NCBI RefSeq assembly: GCF_002831685.1
Contig: NZ_CP025119.1
Location: forward strand, 3,310,501 to 3,374,500
From: Polaribacter sp. ALD11
Lineage (GTDB): Bacteria; Bacteroidota; Bacteroidia; Flavobacteriales; Flavobacteriaceae
Direction: 5' to 3'
Length of the DNA stretch: 64,000 nucleotides
In this document: positions 27,508 to 37,590 of the stretch, in pieces
Layout of the letters: every line of letters starts with the position of its first letter
Position numbering within the stretch: position 1 is the stretch's first letter
Notes under the pieces: model-generated
The model's database searches: none
Told to the model about the DNA's origin: nothing
What the model saw: only the letters and a program-made list of their open reading frames with translations
Made by a program: the position numbers and the translations under genes

Positions 27508-29271
27508 ATGAAAAAATTGAGTATTACATTTCTTTTATTAATGCTATTTATTACTATTGTAAAAGGGCAAGAAGTTGTAAGTTTAGCTACAATTAAAAAT
27601 AGTATTCATAAGAAAGAAATTAATGTAGCGGGAATGAAATTAGGAAATGAAGCCAAAATAATTTGGTCTAAAGAATACAAGGAAAAAAAAGCTCCAATTG
27701 CATTTGTATACTTGCATGGTTTTGGCGCAAGCAGTAGAGAAGGTGAACCAGTAATGAGTCTACTTTCAGAAAAATACAATGCCAATGTTTATATGTCTCG
27801 TTTAAAAGAACATGGTTTAGATAGAGATGACAACTTCGTGAATTTGACACCAGAAAATTATATTGCCTCTGCAAAAGAAGCTTTAGAAATAGGAAAAACT
27901 ATTGGAGAGAAAGTAATTTTAGTAAGTACTTCTACAGGCGGAACTTTAAGTTTAAAGTTAGCTTCAGAAGATACTACTATTGCAGGTTTAATTATGTATT
28001 CGCCATTTATAGGACTTAAAAACCCTGCATTTGCAGCAATTCTAACACCAGAAGGTAAAGCCAGATTTATAAAAAGTAATGGTAGTGAAATTATGAAACA
28101 GAATAGACCAGAAGAGGAAGCGAAATACTGGTCAACTTCTTATCATATTAACGGCTATGAAGCTTTAGTTAAAATGTTAATAAGTAACATGACTTCGGAA
28201 ACTTTTTCGAAAGTTAAGATTCCGGTTTTTGTAGGTTACTATTATAAGAATGAAAAAGAACAAGATCAAGTAGTTTCTGTTTCTGCTATTTTAAAAATGT
28301 ACAATGGTTTAGGAACTTCTATTGATAAAAAAACTAAAAAGGCATTTCCAGAAGCAGGAAACCATGTAATTGGGTGCGATTTAAGATCTAATGATTGGAA
28401 AAGTGTATATGATGAAACTGTAACTTTTATTGATGCTATTATTTTAGAGAAAGAACAAAAGTTCGATTTTGATTTACAAGGTCATAGAGGAGCAAGAGGT
28501 TTATCACCAGAAAATACAATTCAAGCTTTTAAGAAGGCGTTAGATTTAGGTGTAAATACACTAGAATTAGATGTTGTAATTAGTAAAGATAACAAGGTGG
28601 TAGTTTCTCATGAACCTTGGTTAAATGAAGAGGTTACTTTAGATGCCGTAGGAAAGAAGATTACTAAAGAAACTGCTTTGGCTTTTAATATGTATAAAAA
28701 TAAATACAAAAAAATAAAAAGTTACGATGTTGGTTCTATTGGAAACCCTAAGTTTTTAGAGCAGAAAAAAGAAGTTGCTTACAAACCATTATTATCTGAA
28801 GTAATTACTTTTGCTGAAGCTAAAAATAGTGAAATTCGGTATAATGTAGAAATTAAAAGTACACCAACAGATGAAGAAAAAGGATATCAACCTTCCGTCG
28901 CTGAATTCTCTAATCTTGTAATTGAGCAGTTAAAAGAATCAAAATTACCTTTAGAAAGAATAACAGTGCAAAGTTTCGATCCTAGAGTTTTAGAATATAT
29001 TCATAAAACAGATCCAGAGTTTACTTTGGCATTTTTAACGTATCAAAATGATTTTGAAACGAATCTAAAAATGTTAAGTTTTGTACCAAAAATTTACAGT
29101 CCGTACTTTATTTTATTGAATAAAGAAGAGGTGAAAACGATTCAAGATAAAAATATGAAAGTTATTCCGTGGACGGTAAATAAAAAAGAAGACATGGTTA
29201 ATTTATTAAAAATGGGTGTTGATGGAATTATTACAGATTATCCCAATATTGCAATTCCTTTAAGAAAATAA
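27508..29271 (+). CDS. Secreted alpha/beta hydrolase-glycerophosphodiester phosphodiesterase fusion
   Basis: This 587-aa exported protein (signal peptide to about residue 20, IVKGQ) has two enzyme domains. Residues about 45-312 form an alpha/beta hydrolase: oxyanion HGFGASS (70-76), nucleophile S142 in VSTSTGGT (a variant GxSxG) and terminal His in EAGNHVIG. Residues about 320-585 form a GDPD: catalytic GHRGARGLSPENT (H326), ELDVVISKD, HEPW, NVEIKS and IPWTVNKKEDM..GVDGIITDYP. The GDPD domain should split glycerophosphodiesters into glycerol-3-phosphate and alcohol. The hydrolase could remove acyl chains first, so a two-step phospholipid degrader is plausible. Confidence 0.88.
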   Translation: MKKLSITFLLLMLFITIVKGQEVVSLATIKNSIHKKEINVAGMKLGNEAKIIWSKEYKEKKAPIAFVYLHGFGASSREGEPVMSLLSEKYNANVYMSRLKEHGLDRDDNFVNLTPENYIASAKEALEIGKTIGEKVILVSTSTGGTLSLKLASEDTTIAGLIMYSPFIGLKNPAFAAILTPEGKARFIKSNGSEIMKQNRPEEEAKYWSTSYHINGYEALVKMLISNMTSETFSKVKIPVFVGYYYKNEKEQDQVVSVSAILKMYNGLGTSIDKKTKKAFPEAGNHVIGCDLRSNDWKSVYDETVTFIDAIILEKEQKFDFDLQGHRGARGLSPENTIQAFKKALDLGVNTLELDVVISKDNKVVVSHEPWLNEEVTLDAVGKKITKETALAFNMYKNKYKKIKSYDVGSIGNPKFLEQKKEVAYKPLLSEVITFAEAKNSEIRYNVEIKSTPTDEEKGYQPSVAEFSNLVIEQLKESKLPLERITVQSFDPRVLEYIHKTDPEFTLAFLTYQNDFETNLKMLSFVPKIYSPYFILLNKEEVKTIQDKNMKVIPWTVNKKEDMVNLLKMGVDGIITDYPNIAIPLRK

Positions 29272-29445: not shown

Positions 29446-29473
29446 TTTGTACCATATTTTCTGCATATATTTG
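29446..29473 (+). promoter_or_regulatory. Promoter of the gat operon
   Basis: The -33 TTTG (29446-29449) and -7 TATATTTG (29466-29473, full match to TAnnTTTG) have 16 nt between them. The predicted transcript start near 29478-29481 leaves about 10-13 nt before the leader peptide ATG. Confidence 0.7.
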
Positions 29474-29490
29474 TGCGTATAGAAAATAAT

Positions 29491-29538
29491 ATGACAATTA
29501 ATAATAACAATCGTAATTTCAATAATTCTAATTTATAG
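29491..29538 (+). CDS. Asparagine leader peptide of the gat operon attenuator
   Basis: The short frame ATG..TAG encodes 15 residues, MTINNNNRNFNNSNL, of which 8 are Asn, including four in a row. It follows a full promoter by 17 bp and precedes an antiterminator/terminator pair and genes for Asn-tRNA formation. As in his, trp or thr leaders of other bacteria, ribosome stalling on the enriched codons would report lack of the charged tRNA. There is no Asp codon in the frame, so the signal would be specifically Asn-tRNA(Asn). The peptide itself needs no function. AT-richness favours AAT codons, but not at this density and place. Confidence 0.85.
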   Translation: MTINNNNRNFNNSNL

Positions 29539-29599
29539 AACGGAAGGTTGTTGTTTAAAAATATATAAAGCCTTCCAAAAATTTGGAAGGCTTTTTTTT
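29539..29599 (+). promoter_or_regulatory. Antiterminator/terminator switch of the gat operon
   Basis: The terminator has stem AAAGCCTTCCAA (29567-29578) with complement (29583-29594) and T8 to 29599. The competing pairing is GGAAGGTT (29542-29549) with AGCCTTCC (29569-29576), 8 bp including one G-U, which uses the terminator 5' arm. The antiterminator arm begins 4 nt after the leader stop codon (29536-29538). A terminating ribosome would cover it and let the terminator form, whereas a ribosome stalled on Asn codons 4-9 leaves it free. Confidence 0.83.
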
Positions 29600-29617
29600 G
29601 AATCTAAAATTAAAGAC

Positions 29618-29884
29618 ATGAGTAAAATAATGACGGTAGACATTTTGTCTAGTATTAAAGGAGCAAAACCATCGGAATCGGTGAATAAATTATTTGATGT
29701 AATTAAAAATGCAAATCAGAATAATAATGCTACACATACGGTTCATAATAATGTAGTGTTTTTAAGTGATTTAAGAGAAGATGTAGTTATTGAAAGTGCT
29801 TCCTTAGAAAAAGAAATTATTAGAGAAAACTTTCCAAGAGAAAAAAACGGATTTTTAGTGGTTGCTAAAGTGATAGAAGATTAA
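29618..29884 (+). CDS. 88-aa protein of unknown function, first gene of the gat operon
   Basis: I do not recognise this protein. It has no membrane segment or signal. The N-terminal half includes an Asn-rich stretch (KNANQNNNATHTVHNN, about 30-45), and the C-terminal half is charged and probably mixed strand/helix (EIIRENFPREKNGFLVVAKVIED). It starts 18 bp after the attenuator T-run and ends 1 bp before gatA, so it is under the Asn switch. It occupies the place where GatC would be expected, but lacks the GatC pattern of N-terminal helix (VxxLAxLARLxl) followed by the extended wrap segment. An alternative start is ATG at 29630. Confidence 0.7.
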   Translation: MSKIMTVDILSSIKGAKPSESVNKLFDVIKNANQNNNATHTVHNNVVFLSDLREDVVIESASLEKEIIRENFPREKNGFLVVAKVIED

Positions 29885-29885
29885 T

Positions 29886-31277
29886 ATGGAGTCGCAGATA
29901 AAAAAAATACATCAACAATTGATGTCTAAAGAAATTACTTGCACAAGTTTGGTGCAAGAAAAGTTGGACTTATTAAAACAAAATACGCATAATACTGTAA
30001 ATTCTTTATTAGAAGAAACTGCTTTAGCATTGGCTAAAAAAGTAGATGCTAAAATAAAAAATGGCGAAGAAATAGGTTTGTTAGAAGGTGTTCCTTTCGG
30101 AATTAAAGATGTGTATATGTTGCAAGGAACCTACACAACAGCAAGTTCAGACTTGTTAAAGAAATACAAAGCTGCATATACAGCAACTTCTATTCAGAAA
30201 TTGTTAGATGCAGGTGCAATTCCTCTAGTAAAAGAAAATTGTGATGCTTTCGGACATGGTTCTTCTTCTGAAAACACCATATTTGGAGCCGTTAAAAATG
30301 CGATTGATCCAACTTTAGTTGGTGGAGGTTCTAGTGGAGGTTCTGCAGTAAATGTTGCAAAAGACTTTACCGTTTTTTCAATTGGTGGAGATACAGGAGG
30401 TTCTATTCGCCAACCCGCAGGTTACAATAAAGTATACGGATTTAAACCAACGTATGGTAGAATTTCTAGATACGGATTAATGGCGTACGCATCTTCTACA
30501 GATTGTGTTGGGCCTATTGCAAAATCTATTGAAGACATAAGAATTGTTTTAAATGTGATGAGCGGAAAAGATGTAAGAGACCAAACTAGTTATGCTTCTG
30601 ATGTTATTTCTGAAGATTTAAATTCAACAATTAAAACGGTTGGATATTATACCAATTTTATTGAAAGCGATGCAATAAGCAAAGAAATTAAAGCCGATTT
30701 CTTATCAACTTTAGAAAAAATAAAAGCCAAAGGAATTAAAGTGAAAGCATTAGATTTCTTTAATGCTGATGTATTAGTTTCTACGTATTACACCTTGGCA
30801 ATGGCAGAAACTGCTTCTAATTTATCGCGTTTAGACGGTACAAATTATGGTGATAGAGTAGAAGGAGCGAATTTAAAAGATACGTATGCTATTACACGAT
30901 CAGAAAAATTTTCCGAAGAAACAAAAAGAAGGATTGTTGGTGGAAACCAAGTGTTATCTCAAGGTTTTTCTGATGAAATTTATTTAAAAGCACAAAATTT
31001 AAGAAATCAGATTTCTGCAAGATTTAGTGAAGATTTTGAAACCGTAGATATAGTTTTATCTCCAGTAACGCCTGCAAATCCGCCAAAAATTGGCGAGAGC
31101 TTAAATGATCCTTTAGCTATGTATTTATCAGATGCTTACACGGTTGGTTTTAGTTTAGGTGAGTTACCTACGTTAACCATTCCTAAAGGAACTAATACAG
31201 GATTACAAATTACAGCAGACAAGAAAAAAGATGCGGAAGTTTTACAATTTGCTAACTTCTTAAACGATATTTTATAA
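29886..31277 (+). CDS. gatA: Asp-tRNA(Asn)/Glu-tRNA(Gln) amidotransferase subunit A
   Basis: The 463-aa amidase-signature enzyme releases ammonia from Gln for transamidation by GatB. It has catalytic Lys in GVPFGIKDVY (about 74) and the amidase Ser-rich core GGGSSGGSAVNVA..FSIGGDTGGSIRQPAG (about 146-178, containing the cis-Ser and nucleophile Ser), followed by YGFKPTYGRISRYG, as in all GatA. Its stop overlaps the gatB start by one base (TAATG), so the two are translationally coupled. Confidence 0.95.
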   Translation: MESQIKKIHQQLMSKEITCTSLVQEKLDLLKQNTHNTVNSLLEETALALAKKVDAKIKNGEEIGLLEGVPFGIKDVYMLQGTYTTASSDLLKKYKAAYTATSIQKLLDAGAIPLVKENCDAFGHGSSSENTIFGAVKNAIDPTLVGGGSSGGSAVNVAKDFTVFSIGGDTGGSIRQPAGYNKVYGFKPTYGRISRYGLMAYASSTDCVGPIAKSIEDIRIVLNVMSGKDVRDQTSYASDVISEDLNSTIKTVGYYTNFIESDAISKEIKADFLSTLEKIKAKGIKVKALDFFNADVLVSTYYTLAMAETASNLSRLDGTNYGDRVEGANLKDTYAITRSEKFSEETKRRIVGGNQVLSQGFSDEIYLKAQNLRNQISARFSEDFETVDIVLSPVTPANPPKIGESLNDPLAMYLSDAYTVGFSLGELPTLTIPKGTNTGLQITADKKKDAEVLQFANFLNDIL

Positions 31278-35846: not shown

Positions 35847-35877
35847 TTGCTCAATTTAAAAATCTACCTTATTTTTG
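35847..35877 (+). promoter_or_regulatory. Promoter of the trp operon
   Basis: The -33 TTG (35847-35849) and -7 TATTTTTG (35870-35877) have 20 nt between them. The predicted start near 35882-35885 makes the leader peptide almost leaderless (ATG at 35885). Confidence 0.68.
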
Positions 35878-35884
35878 TAACTCA

Positions 35885-35935
35885 ATGAAAAATACACAAA
35901 ACATATCTTGGTGGTGGAGCTCTCTTAATTTATAA
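35885..35935 (+). CDS. trpL: trp operon leader peptide
   Basis: The 16-residue frame MKNTQNISWWWSSLNL has three consecutive TGG codons (35909-35917), followed by a terminator and trpE. Trp is normally rare, so three in a row next to a trp operon is diagnostic of ribosome-mediated attenuation. Its small size kept it off any length-filtered gene list. Confidence 0.93.
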   Translation: MKNTQNISWWWSSLNL

Positions 35936-36003
35936 GTGAGAACTAAACCTATATGTATATAATATACCAAAAAAGGCTTATCTCACGATAAGCCTTTTTT
36001 TTT
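35936..36003 (+). promoter_or_regulatory. trp attenuator (antiterminator and terminator)
   Basis: Terminator: 14-bp stem AAAAAAGGCTTATC (35969-35982) / complement (35987-36000), loop TCAC, T-run to 36003. Proposed antiterminator: GTGAGA (35936-35941, directly after the leader stop) with TCTCAC (35981-35986), plus TTAT (35930-35933) with ATAA (35988-35991). It is weaker than the gat version but uses the same position relative to the stop codon. Confidence 0.78.
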
Positions 36004-36055
36004 ATGATGATTTTTTGGGTCATCATAAGTAAAAAAAGAATAGACAAATGTCCCC

Positions 36056-36101
36056 TCGAGCGCAGTCGAGAGGTTCTAAAATAAGTCTCGACTGCGCTCG
36101 A
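36056..36101. repeat. REP-like palindrome in front of trpE
   Basis: The perfect 16-bp inverted repeat TCGAGCGCAGTCGAGA / TCTCGACTGCGCTCGA has a 14-nt loop and is far more GC-rich than its surroundings. It resembles the dispersed CTCGACTGCGCTCGAG-type repeats I know from flavobacterial genomes. It ends 16 bp before the trpE ATG, so the folded RNA would lie next to the ribosome entry site. Confidence 0.8.
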
Positions 36102-36117
36102 CCAGACAAAAAGTAAA

Positions 36118-37509
36118 ATGAAAAAATTACAATTTAAGACAATTCATAAAACGAAGATCGCGGATACAGTTACACCAGTAGGTTTGTACTTGCGTTTTAG
36201 AGATAAATATGCAAATACTTTGTTGCTAGAAAGCTCAGATTATCACAGTAAAGAAGAGAGTTTTTCTTTTATTGCTATAGAGCCAATTGTTACCATGAAA
36301 GTGGACGATTATCAGTTTTCGGTTACTCATAAAGGTACAGAAACTGAGGCACAACCCATCAATAAAAACTTTTATCAGTTATTCGATAAATTTACAAGTT
36401 CTATTGCTTTAGAGTGTCCTGCGGAATTAAAATCATTCAATGGTTTGTATGGATATTCGACATTTGATGCTGTTCAATATTTCGAAAACATCAAATTTAC
36501 AAACAAGAAAGCACCTTCTGCAATTCCAGAAATGCAATACAGTTTTTATAGATTTATTATTGCCATCAATCATTTTAATGATGAAATGACACTGATAGAA
36601 AATATTGAAGAAGGAACGGAATCTCGCATACATGAAATCCAAACAATTATAGATGCACAAGCATTCAATACACAAAAGTTTGAAACTGTAGGAGAAGAAA
36701 CTTCAAATGTTACAGGAGAAGAATTTAAAGAATATGTAAGACAAGCAAAAACGCATTGTAAAAGAGGAGACGTTTTTCAGTTGGTATTATCACGCCAATT
36801 TCAACAGAAATTTAAAGGAGACGAATTCAATGTGTATAGAGCATTGCGTTCTATAAATCCGTCGCCATACTTGTTTTATTTCGATTACGGATCTTTCAAA
36901 TTAATGGGTTCTTCACCAGAAGCACAGATTAAAATATCAGGCGGAAAAGCGACTATTAATCCGATTGCAGGTACATTTCGTAGAACGGGTGATACAGCAG
37001 AAGATATTAAATTAGGTAAGAAACTATCCGAAGATAAAAAGGAAACGGCAGAACACGTAATGTTGGTAGATTTGGCGCGAAATGATTTGAGCAAACATGC
37101 CGATAAAGTTACGGTAGAGGTATTTAAAGAGGTGCAATATTTTAGCCACGTTATTCATTTGGTCTCTACGGTTAGAGGAAAAATTAAAGGAAATCCGATT
37201 GAAATTGTTGGAGATACTTTTCCTGCCGGAACGCTGAGTGGCGCACCAAAATACAAGGCAATGGAGTTGATTAATAAGTATGAAAATCAAACACGCGGAT
37301 TTTATGGTGGCGCAGTCGGCATTATCGGTTTAGATGGTTCTGTGAATTTGGCGATCGCCATTCGTTCTTTTGTGAGTAAAAACAACGTTTTGTATTCGCA
37401 AGCAGGCGCAGGAATCGTAATTCATTCCGACGAAGAGAAAGAATTACAAGAAGTAAATAATAAGTTAGCAGCGTTAAATAAAGCGTTAATTTTAGCAGAG
37501 AATATTTAG
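36118..37509 (+). CDS. trpE: Anthranilate synthase component I
   Basis: The 463-aa chorismate-binding enzyme has the N-terminal Trp-binding half with the LLESSD feedback motif (about 37-42) and the catalytic half with QLVLSRQF, ATINPIAGTFRRTGD, LVDLARNDLSKH, ELVSTVRGKIKG-like VIHLVSTVRGKIKG, FPAGTLSGAPKYKAMELI and FYGGAVG. With TrpG it converts chorismate and Gln to anthranilate. It is the first structural gene after the attenuator and REP-like palindrome. Feedback inhibition by Trp is expected from the LLESSD motif. Confidence 0.97.
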   Translation: MKKLQFKTIHKTKIADTVTPVGLYLRFRDKYANTLLLESSDYHSKEESFSFIAIEPIVTMKVDDYQFSVTHKGTETEAQPINKNFYQLFDKFTSSIALECPAELKSFNGLYGYSTFDAVQYFENIKFTNKKAPSAIPEMQYSFYRFIIAINHFNDEMTLIENIEEGTESRIHEIQTIIDAQAFNTQKFETVGEETSNVTGEEFKEYVRQAKTHCKRGDVFQLVLSRQFQQKFKGDEFNVYRALRSINPSPYLFYFDYGSFKLMGSSPEAQIKISGGKATINPIAGTFRRTGDTAEDIKLGKKLSEDKKETAEHVMLVDLARNDLSKHADKVTVEVFKEVQYFSHVIHLVSTVRGKIKGNPIEIVGDTFPAGTLSGAPKYKAMELINKYENQTRGFYGGAVGIIGLDGSVNLAIAIRSFVSKNNVLYSQAGAGIVIHSDEEKELQEVNNKLAALNKALILAENI

Positions 37510-37510
37510 G

Positions 37511-37590
37511 GCGTTCGAGCGGGCTTTCCACTATATCTTTTTTCCGAAAAAGAAAAAAGTATGCCGTTTCAATCCCTAACGCAAAAGTGA
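37511..37590. repeat. Dispersed flavobacterial intergenic repeat
   Basis: The segment starts GGGCGTTCGAGCGGGCTTTC and ends CAATCCCTAACGC, with a central run of TCTTTTTTCCGAAAAAG. The ends are short inverted repeats (GCGTT/AACGC). It resembles a widespread non-coding repeat of Flavobacteriaceae genomes (recalled, not searched). An antisense reading frame across it is not a gene. Confidence 0.6.

Follow-up and report, generated by a model that had tools for sequence, protein, structure and literature searches.

A probable asparagine-reading leader-peptide attenuator ahead of the gatC-gatA-gatB/aspS operon of Flavobacteriaceae

What is a 15-codon frame with eight Asn codons doing between a promoter and a strong terminator, directly ahead of genes for a tRNA-dependent amidotransferase? 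The frame lies in a 64,000-nt stretch of the Polaribacter sp. ALD11 genome (Flavobacteriaceae, 3.57 Mb), hereafter the window. The region around it is AT-rich, and its upstream neighbour is a glycerophosphodiester-phosphodiesterase-like gene (27508-29271). The promoter, the Asn-rich frame, the antiterminator and the terminator that the initial annotation had described are all present and positioned as it had them (Table 1). The promoter has the TTTG/TAnnTTTG form, which we take to be the Bacteroidota consensus. The Asn fraction of the leader frame is the highest among frames of 8-30 codons from 703 ATG starts in the whole window (350 on the plus and 353 on the minus strand). The 136-nt leader folds at -28.6 kcal/mol, versus -15 +/- 2.99 in shuffled sequences (z -4.55; none of 200 shuffles is as good), and its terminator stem has 12 pairs, versus 6 in the sole other plus-strand terminator-like site of the 1.3 kb scanned. 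The antiterminator (segments 2:3) and the terminator (3:4) share segment 3 and are mutually exclusive, and a putative pairing of segment 1 with segment 2, absent from the initial annotation, completes the 1:2 / 2:3 / 3:4 set. The T-tract is separated from the gatC-like gene by 18 nt (29600-29617), a gap that would be too small for a further promoter ahead of gatC in the window.

Table 1. Features of the putative leader and of the operon behind it (window coordinates)
Feature	Position	Strand	Details and basis
Promoter, putative Bacteroidota type	29446..29473	+	TTTG 29446-29449, 16-nt spacer, TATATTTG 29466-29473; read from the sequence
Leader peptide frame MTINNNNRNFNNSNL	29491..29538	+	ATG 29491, TAG 29536-29538; 8 Asn codons of 15; sequence, 38-locus codon table, control scan
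Segment 1 (putative protector), within the Asn codons	29503..29512	+	AATAACAATC; 10-bp pairing with GGTTGTTGTT 29546-29555
Segment 2	29542..29555	+	GGAAGGTT 29542-29549, partner of segment 3; GGTTGTTGTT 29546-29555, partner of segment 1
Segment 3, shared arm	29567..29578	+	antiterminator arm AGCCTTCC 29569-29576; terminator arm AAAGCCTTCCAA
Segment 4 and T-tract, intrinsic terminator	29583..29599	+	stem 29567-29578 with 29583-29594; T-tract 29592-29599
gatC-like gene, 88 aa, divergent	29618..29884	+	best Pfam match PF02686 GatC, below cut-off; position ahead of gatA
gatA, amidotransferase subunit A	29886..31277	+	PF01425 1.2e-111; TIGR00132 429.9 bits, below cut-off 481.1
gatB-aspS fusion, 1111 aa	31277..34612	+	PF02934, PF02637, PF00152, PF02938; GatB, then a second bacterial-type AspRS

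By family, the genes behind the leader are gatA and gatB-aspS, as the initial annotation had proposed, and a gatC-like gene that it did not mention stands ahead of them. The product of the latter scores below the curated cut-offs (21.3 vs 23 bits in Pfam, 20.6 vs 47.1 in NCBIfam), and the name gatC-like therefore rests on its place in the operon and its best family match. A gatC homologue precedes gatA in 78 of the best 80 of 552 confirmed gatB-aspS loci, gatA being off the contig end in the other two. The GatB-AspS fusion exceeds the cut-offs of both TIGR00133 (348 bits) and TIGR00459 (649.1 bits) and is 93% identical to the protein of Polaribacter sp. IC073. The divergent GatC-like protein occurs together with the fusion and is possibly adapted to it.

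The genome encodes AsnRS, GlnRS and two AspRS, one stand-alone and one fused to GatB. AsnA was not found in it, and no AsnB scores above the cut-off, only partial matches being present (best 64.5 bits vs 267.1). Since AsnRS and GlnRS are present, AsnA is absent and AsnB remains below the cut-off, gatC-gatA-gatB/aspS is probably the asparagine biosynthetic operon of this genome. The initial contention that the leader controls transamidation rather than an amino-acid pathway is thereby corrected, transamidation probably being the Asn pathway itself. RDHG is found both in the fused AspRS and in 4wj3 (named Asp/Asn ligase), RDLG in 1eqr and 1efw, and RDKG in the stand-alone AspRS; this is an indirect hint that the fused enzyme may also charge tRNA-Asn. 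The one tRNA-Asn found by pattern in the genome (L205:1485-1559) has U1-A72, a pair that bacterial GatCAB needs in tRNA-Asn (PMC4206432). The same paper shows that AspRS plus GatCAB serves Asn biosynthesis in Bdellovibrio and lists Bacteroidetes among genera with AsnRS, GlnRS and GatCAB but without Asn synthetase. Within that group the second AspRS of the survey comes solely from Deinococcus-Thermus, so that the fused second AspRS adds to the survey (PMC4206432). AsnB above the cut-off is found in 8 of 26 leader-bearing and 10 of 23 leaderless genomes (L023 and L080 left out). These counts do not bear out a simple division into leader-bearing genomes without AsnB and leaderless genomes with it, and because of the former eight, amidation is not always the sole Asn route.

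Taken together with the comparisons given below, we consider it highly probable, on sequence grounds, that the leader is a ribosome-mediated transcription attenuator which reads charged tRNA-Asn and controls gatC-gatA-gatB/aspS. The fused second AspRS would make Asp-tRNA-Asn, which GatCAB would then amidate. With Asn-tRNA plentiful, the ribosome would reach the leader stop codon and cover segment 2, the 3:4 terminator would form and the operon would be off. With Asn-tRNA short, the ribosome would stall on the Asn codons and cover segment 1, so that 2:3 would pair, no terminator would form and transcription would read through into gatC. On an untranslated leader, segment 1 would mask segment 2 and transcription would terminate.

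To follow the leader among relatives, we used the best 80 of the 552 gatB-aspS loci obtained by protein search, a set that leans to near relatives and in which gatC is readable in 78 loci. The same leader, screened for within 350 nt upstream (158 nt in L054), is present in 37 of the 78 readable loci, a count that includes L015 and L019, both missed by a stricter sequence pattern. It is absent from the other 41, i.e. over half, and the conservation that the initial annotation proposed to test for extends to only a part of the relatives in this best-80 set. The window and the 37 leader-bearing loci make up alignment A1 (38 rows). This alignment upstream of gatA, which the initial annotation had suggested as a check, bears it out in that the Asn codons, the alternative pairings, the terminator and the promoter are kept in the 38 loci. 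According to the A1 codon table, five of the eight usual Asn positions are Asn in 37-38 of 38 rows and three in 35-36, the replacements being Ile, Met, Thr, Ser and one Lys. The core of the peptide is well conserved and both ends are variable. Phe is kept in 38/38 leaders and Pro in 35/38, and the codons at -3 and -1 relative to the conserved Phe are Asn in all 38 rows. Classic attenuation leaves this Phe and Pro unexplained. Conservation of non-Asn residues would favour an arrest peptide, in which stalling is caused by the nascent chain, perhaps via Phe and Pro, and does not depend on how much Asn-tRNA is available; the leaders ahead of asnA bear on this alternative.

AsnA is encoded by 29 of 397 Flavobacteriaceae genomes, 27 of which have readable upstream DNA (L181 and L182 are cut). 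L140, a weak match of the covariance model described below, is an Asn-rich leader ahead of asnA. Asn-rich frames precede asnA in nine of the 27 readable loci, and no Asn-rich leader was found at the other 18. Seven were flagged automatically and two (L165, L167) were added by eye among 12 chosen loci, the remaining 15 readable loci being screened automatically only. Six of the nine (L163-L166, L169, L170) carry two tandem Asn-rich frames, each followed by a terminator. A terminator follows all 15 frames and an alternative helix is found for ten (at most 1 of 60 shuffles reaches it). Such a helix is missing for L165 (both frames) and for the second frame of each of L164, L169 and L170. The latter three (5-7 Asn in 34-39 codons) extend into their terminator, and in L169 and L170 the first frame has no start other than GTG. 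In the asnA leaders segment 2 begins within the frame; in the gatCAB leader it begins after the stop. Outside Flavobacteriaceae, an Asn-rich leader precedes asnA in one of 12 loci (L235, from another family of the same class). AsnA (29 genomes) and GatB (59 genomes) never occur together in the 397 genomes (Fisher p 0.013, relatedness ignored). None of L096, L136, L140, L163 and L235 has an Rfam match at the gathering score. As for asnB, none of the 20 places inspected, out of 23 with AsnB above the cut-off, showed a recognisable Asn leader; in regions L194 and L198 there are frames of 22-28 codons with 4-5 Asn. In some relatives using the AsnA route, a sensor of this kind, its peptide differing in sequence, would stand ahead of asnA. 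That Asn leaders precede two unrelated Asn routes is, in our view, the strongest reason to take Asn as the signal. The asnA leaders are Asn-rich, yet they lack the NFNNPN motif of the gatCAB leader, and an arrest peptide is accordingly very improbable.

Intergenic terminators are common, and in an AT-rich region an Asn-rich frame might arise by chance, so that the terminator could simply belong to the upstream phosphodiesterase-like gene, and gatC could be served by a separate promoter behind the terminator. An origin of the frame by chance or AT bias was rejected on the strength of a control scan of ATG frames of 10-30 codons on both strands of the 80 loci (2.25 Mb; best 80 of 552), with Asn-rich defined as at least 6 Asn and at least 35%. 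The 11,504 short frames contained 38 distinct Asn-rich ones, 37 of which are the gatCAB leader, leaving one other; Asn-rich short frames are otherwise nearly missing from these loci. TAnnTTTG is found upstream of the leader ATG in 38/38 loci, at a distance of 13-20 nt, and the frame, this element and both hairpins are kept together in all of them. With, in addition, only the 18 nt between the T-tract and gatC, a plain terminator is very unlikely. In six relatives (L013, L019, L025, L069, L070, L087) extra DNA lies between the terminator and gatC, the leader being 153-298 nt before gatC versus about 127; in some relatives a later promoter may be present within this longer spacing (leader up to 298 nt before gatC).

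The pairings themselves differ in how they vary among the 38 rows of A1. In the terminator, 95.4% of cells pair, and there are 14 two-sided changed cells versus 4.4 in shuffles, none of 500 being as high; two-sided covariation thus supports the terminator. In the antiterminator, 97.0% of cells pair, compared with 28-71% in slid versions, and this nearly invariant helix has no two-sided covariation, all 500 shuffles equalling it. Because its pairing hardly varies, covariation speaks neither for nor against it, and its support is conservation. The covariation check put forward in the initial annotation is therefore borne out for the terminator and finds nothing two-sided in the antiterminator. 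The protector (1:2) pairs in 91.6% of cells with weak covariation, 44 of 500 shuffles reaching that percentage; its registers differ between clades, and those clades with AAT for CGT use other registers. In 38/38 rows the best 1:2 and 2:3 helices are matched by at most 4 and at most 5 of 60 shuffles, respectively. GAAGG of segment 2 begins 0-6 nt past the leader stop in every row, and would be hidden by a ribosome occupying the stop codon. This position of the stop, as well as the overlap between the Asn codons and segment 1, fits a role in cis. It argues, as does the variation of both peptide ends, against a peptide that works in trans as a functional small protein. We give the latter very little credence, even with the well conserved core and the precedent of peTrpL, a leader peptide reported to have a trans role. 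Another sensor at the leader, be it a T-box or a riboswitch, is the least probable reading: T-boxes, judging by titles, reportedly control such operons in Clostridium, but neither a T-box nor any other Rfam family is found at gathering score at 29446-29599, and at about 120 nt the leader is on the small side for a T-box.

A covariance model of the leader was run on the 397 Flavobacteriaceae genomes, a sample which overlaps the 80 loci in the window itself and several shared species. It gave 37 strong matches (at least 96.6 bits, the next being at 49.9 bits), and all 37 lie ahead of gatC and gatA. GatB is present in 59 of the genomes, and 36 strong matches fall in these; the 37th belongs to genome G172, whose gatA extends past the contig end. 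GatB genomes lacking a strong match number 23; 22 of them are readable (L223 offers 52 nt), and no Asn leader was found in these. Frames of 24-39 codons with 4-5 Asn and no ATG start occur in six of the 22 leaderless loci; we judged them to be non-leaders. A CTTTYGTAATTT-like element is located at most 120 nt from gatC in 22/22 of these leaderless loci (L206-L222, L224-L228), in 30 of the 41 leaderless loci of the first set (best 80 of 552) and in none of the 38 leader-bearing loci. It is perhaps an alternative promoter or operator of leaderless gatCAB operons. In a FastTree tree of 79 GatB-AspS proteins, presence of the leader needs 7 changes, versus a shuffled mean of 26.6, and the starred branches force at least 3; therefore, the leader was gained or lost several times. 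Among 13 weak matches (below 50 bits) that were inspected, about a hundred being left out, one is the asnA leader L140, seven are nothing recognisable and five are, by eye, Ile-rich or Ile/Thr-rich leaders (L133, L136, L137, L138, L141). A core-pattern scan of 395 Bacteroidota genomes returned nine matches in eight genomes, one being the leader of the window. No homologues of gatC, gatA, asnA or gatB-aspS occur near the other eight, within loci of 2.7-3.0 kb; the pattern is narrow, and other Asn leaders could escape it.

Classic leader-peptide attenuators include those of the trp, his and ilv operons of enterobacteria. The proposed attenuator shares with them a short frame in which codons for the regulated amino acid abound, antiterminator and terminator hairpins with a putative protector, and coupling to the operon of its own pathway. 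It differs in that the amino acid is Asn and the operon encodes tRNA-dependent amidation and an aminoacyl-tRNA synthetase, not enzymes making a free amino acid. Its fit to classic attenuation is strengthened by the presence of Trp and Ile leaders of the same plan in the same genome. The former, a Bacteroid-trp leader (RF01692, 49.2 bits vs a cut-off of 49) with the frame MKNTQNISWWWSSLNL, lies 6 kb from the Asn leader (window 35863-35982) and precedes a trpE-like gene at 36118 (TIGR00564 416.2 bits, below the cut-off of 517.7). The latter, an Ile-rich leader MNKQVINIISIIIIVIITT of similar plan, precedes ilvD and is bordered on its other side by a gene that looks leuB-like by eye (L136, G000:C1:2018233-2018360, minus strand). 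Two further elements were seen in this part of the window. An inverted repeat around TCGAGCGCAGTCGA (36048-36105), between the trp terminator and the trpE-like gene, resembles a mobile hairpin repeat, and a Flavo-1 RNA motif (RF01705) is at 37513-37587 on the minus strand.

According to their titles, two papers by Saad (2012, 2013) concern a T-box that controls the tRNA-dependent synthesis of Asn in Clostridium acetobutylicum. Going by these titles, that system resembles ours in the tRNA-linked control of tRNA-dependent amidation for Asn; it differs in that RNA there binds tRNA directly, whereas here a translating ribosome would be the reader. This precedent in Clostridium lowers the conceptual surprise. 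The hisS leader peptides of bacilli (PMC2965389) likewise govern aminoacyl-tRNA-forming genes, although theirs read His and concern a direct synthetase without an amidotransferase; the same paper reports exchange of sensing systems between lineages. For Flavobacterium psychrophilum, of the same family, PMC9723704 describes structured 5' elements before amino-acid operons, with strong clues for leader-peptide attenuation; its main text has no mention of asparagin-, gatA or aspS. The initial annotation held that an Asn leader controlling transamidation was not a described class. As far as the Asn leader peptide goes, none was found among the open-licence papers listed by our searches, supplements excluded, and Lopatovskaya 2010, which deals with attenuation at operons for amino acids and aminoacyl-tRNA, could contain one; charge-sensing T-box control, on the other hand, is known in Clostridium. 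The mechanism is known; the Asn specificity and the amidation target are new as far as these listed papers reach.

With modest confidence, we lean towards the broader view that Asn-sensing leader-peptide attenuation is an unlisted class of Bacteroidota, apparently installed repeatedly ahead of the Asn route that a given lineage has retained, be it AsnA (often with tandem attenuators) or amidation. The amidation case would then be the first ribosome-read feedback loop, within the reach of our searches, whose sensor tRNA is the substrate on which Asn is built, and Asp-tRNA-Asn, an intermediate of the pathway, may join the signal. The leader would make asparagine one more amino acid that such attenuators read, and the mechanism would be extended to tRNA-dependent amino-acid synthesis. 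The comparison points to an exchange of sensors over the same pathway, a T-box in Clostridium and a leader peptide in Flavobacteriaceae. It also supports the view that in these bacteria GatCAB and a second AspRS form a route of Asn biosynthesis. One question becomes testable in this way, namely, whether a pool of Asp-tRNA-Asn, a species that should be kept from the ribosome, mimics starvation at the leader.
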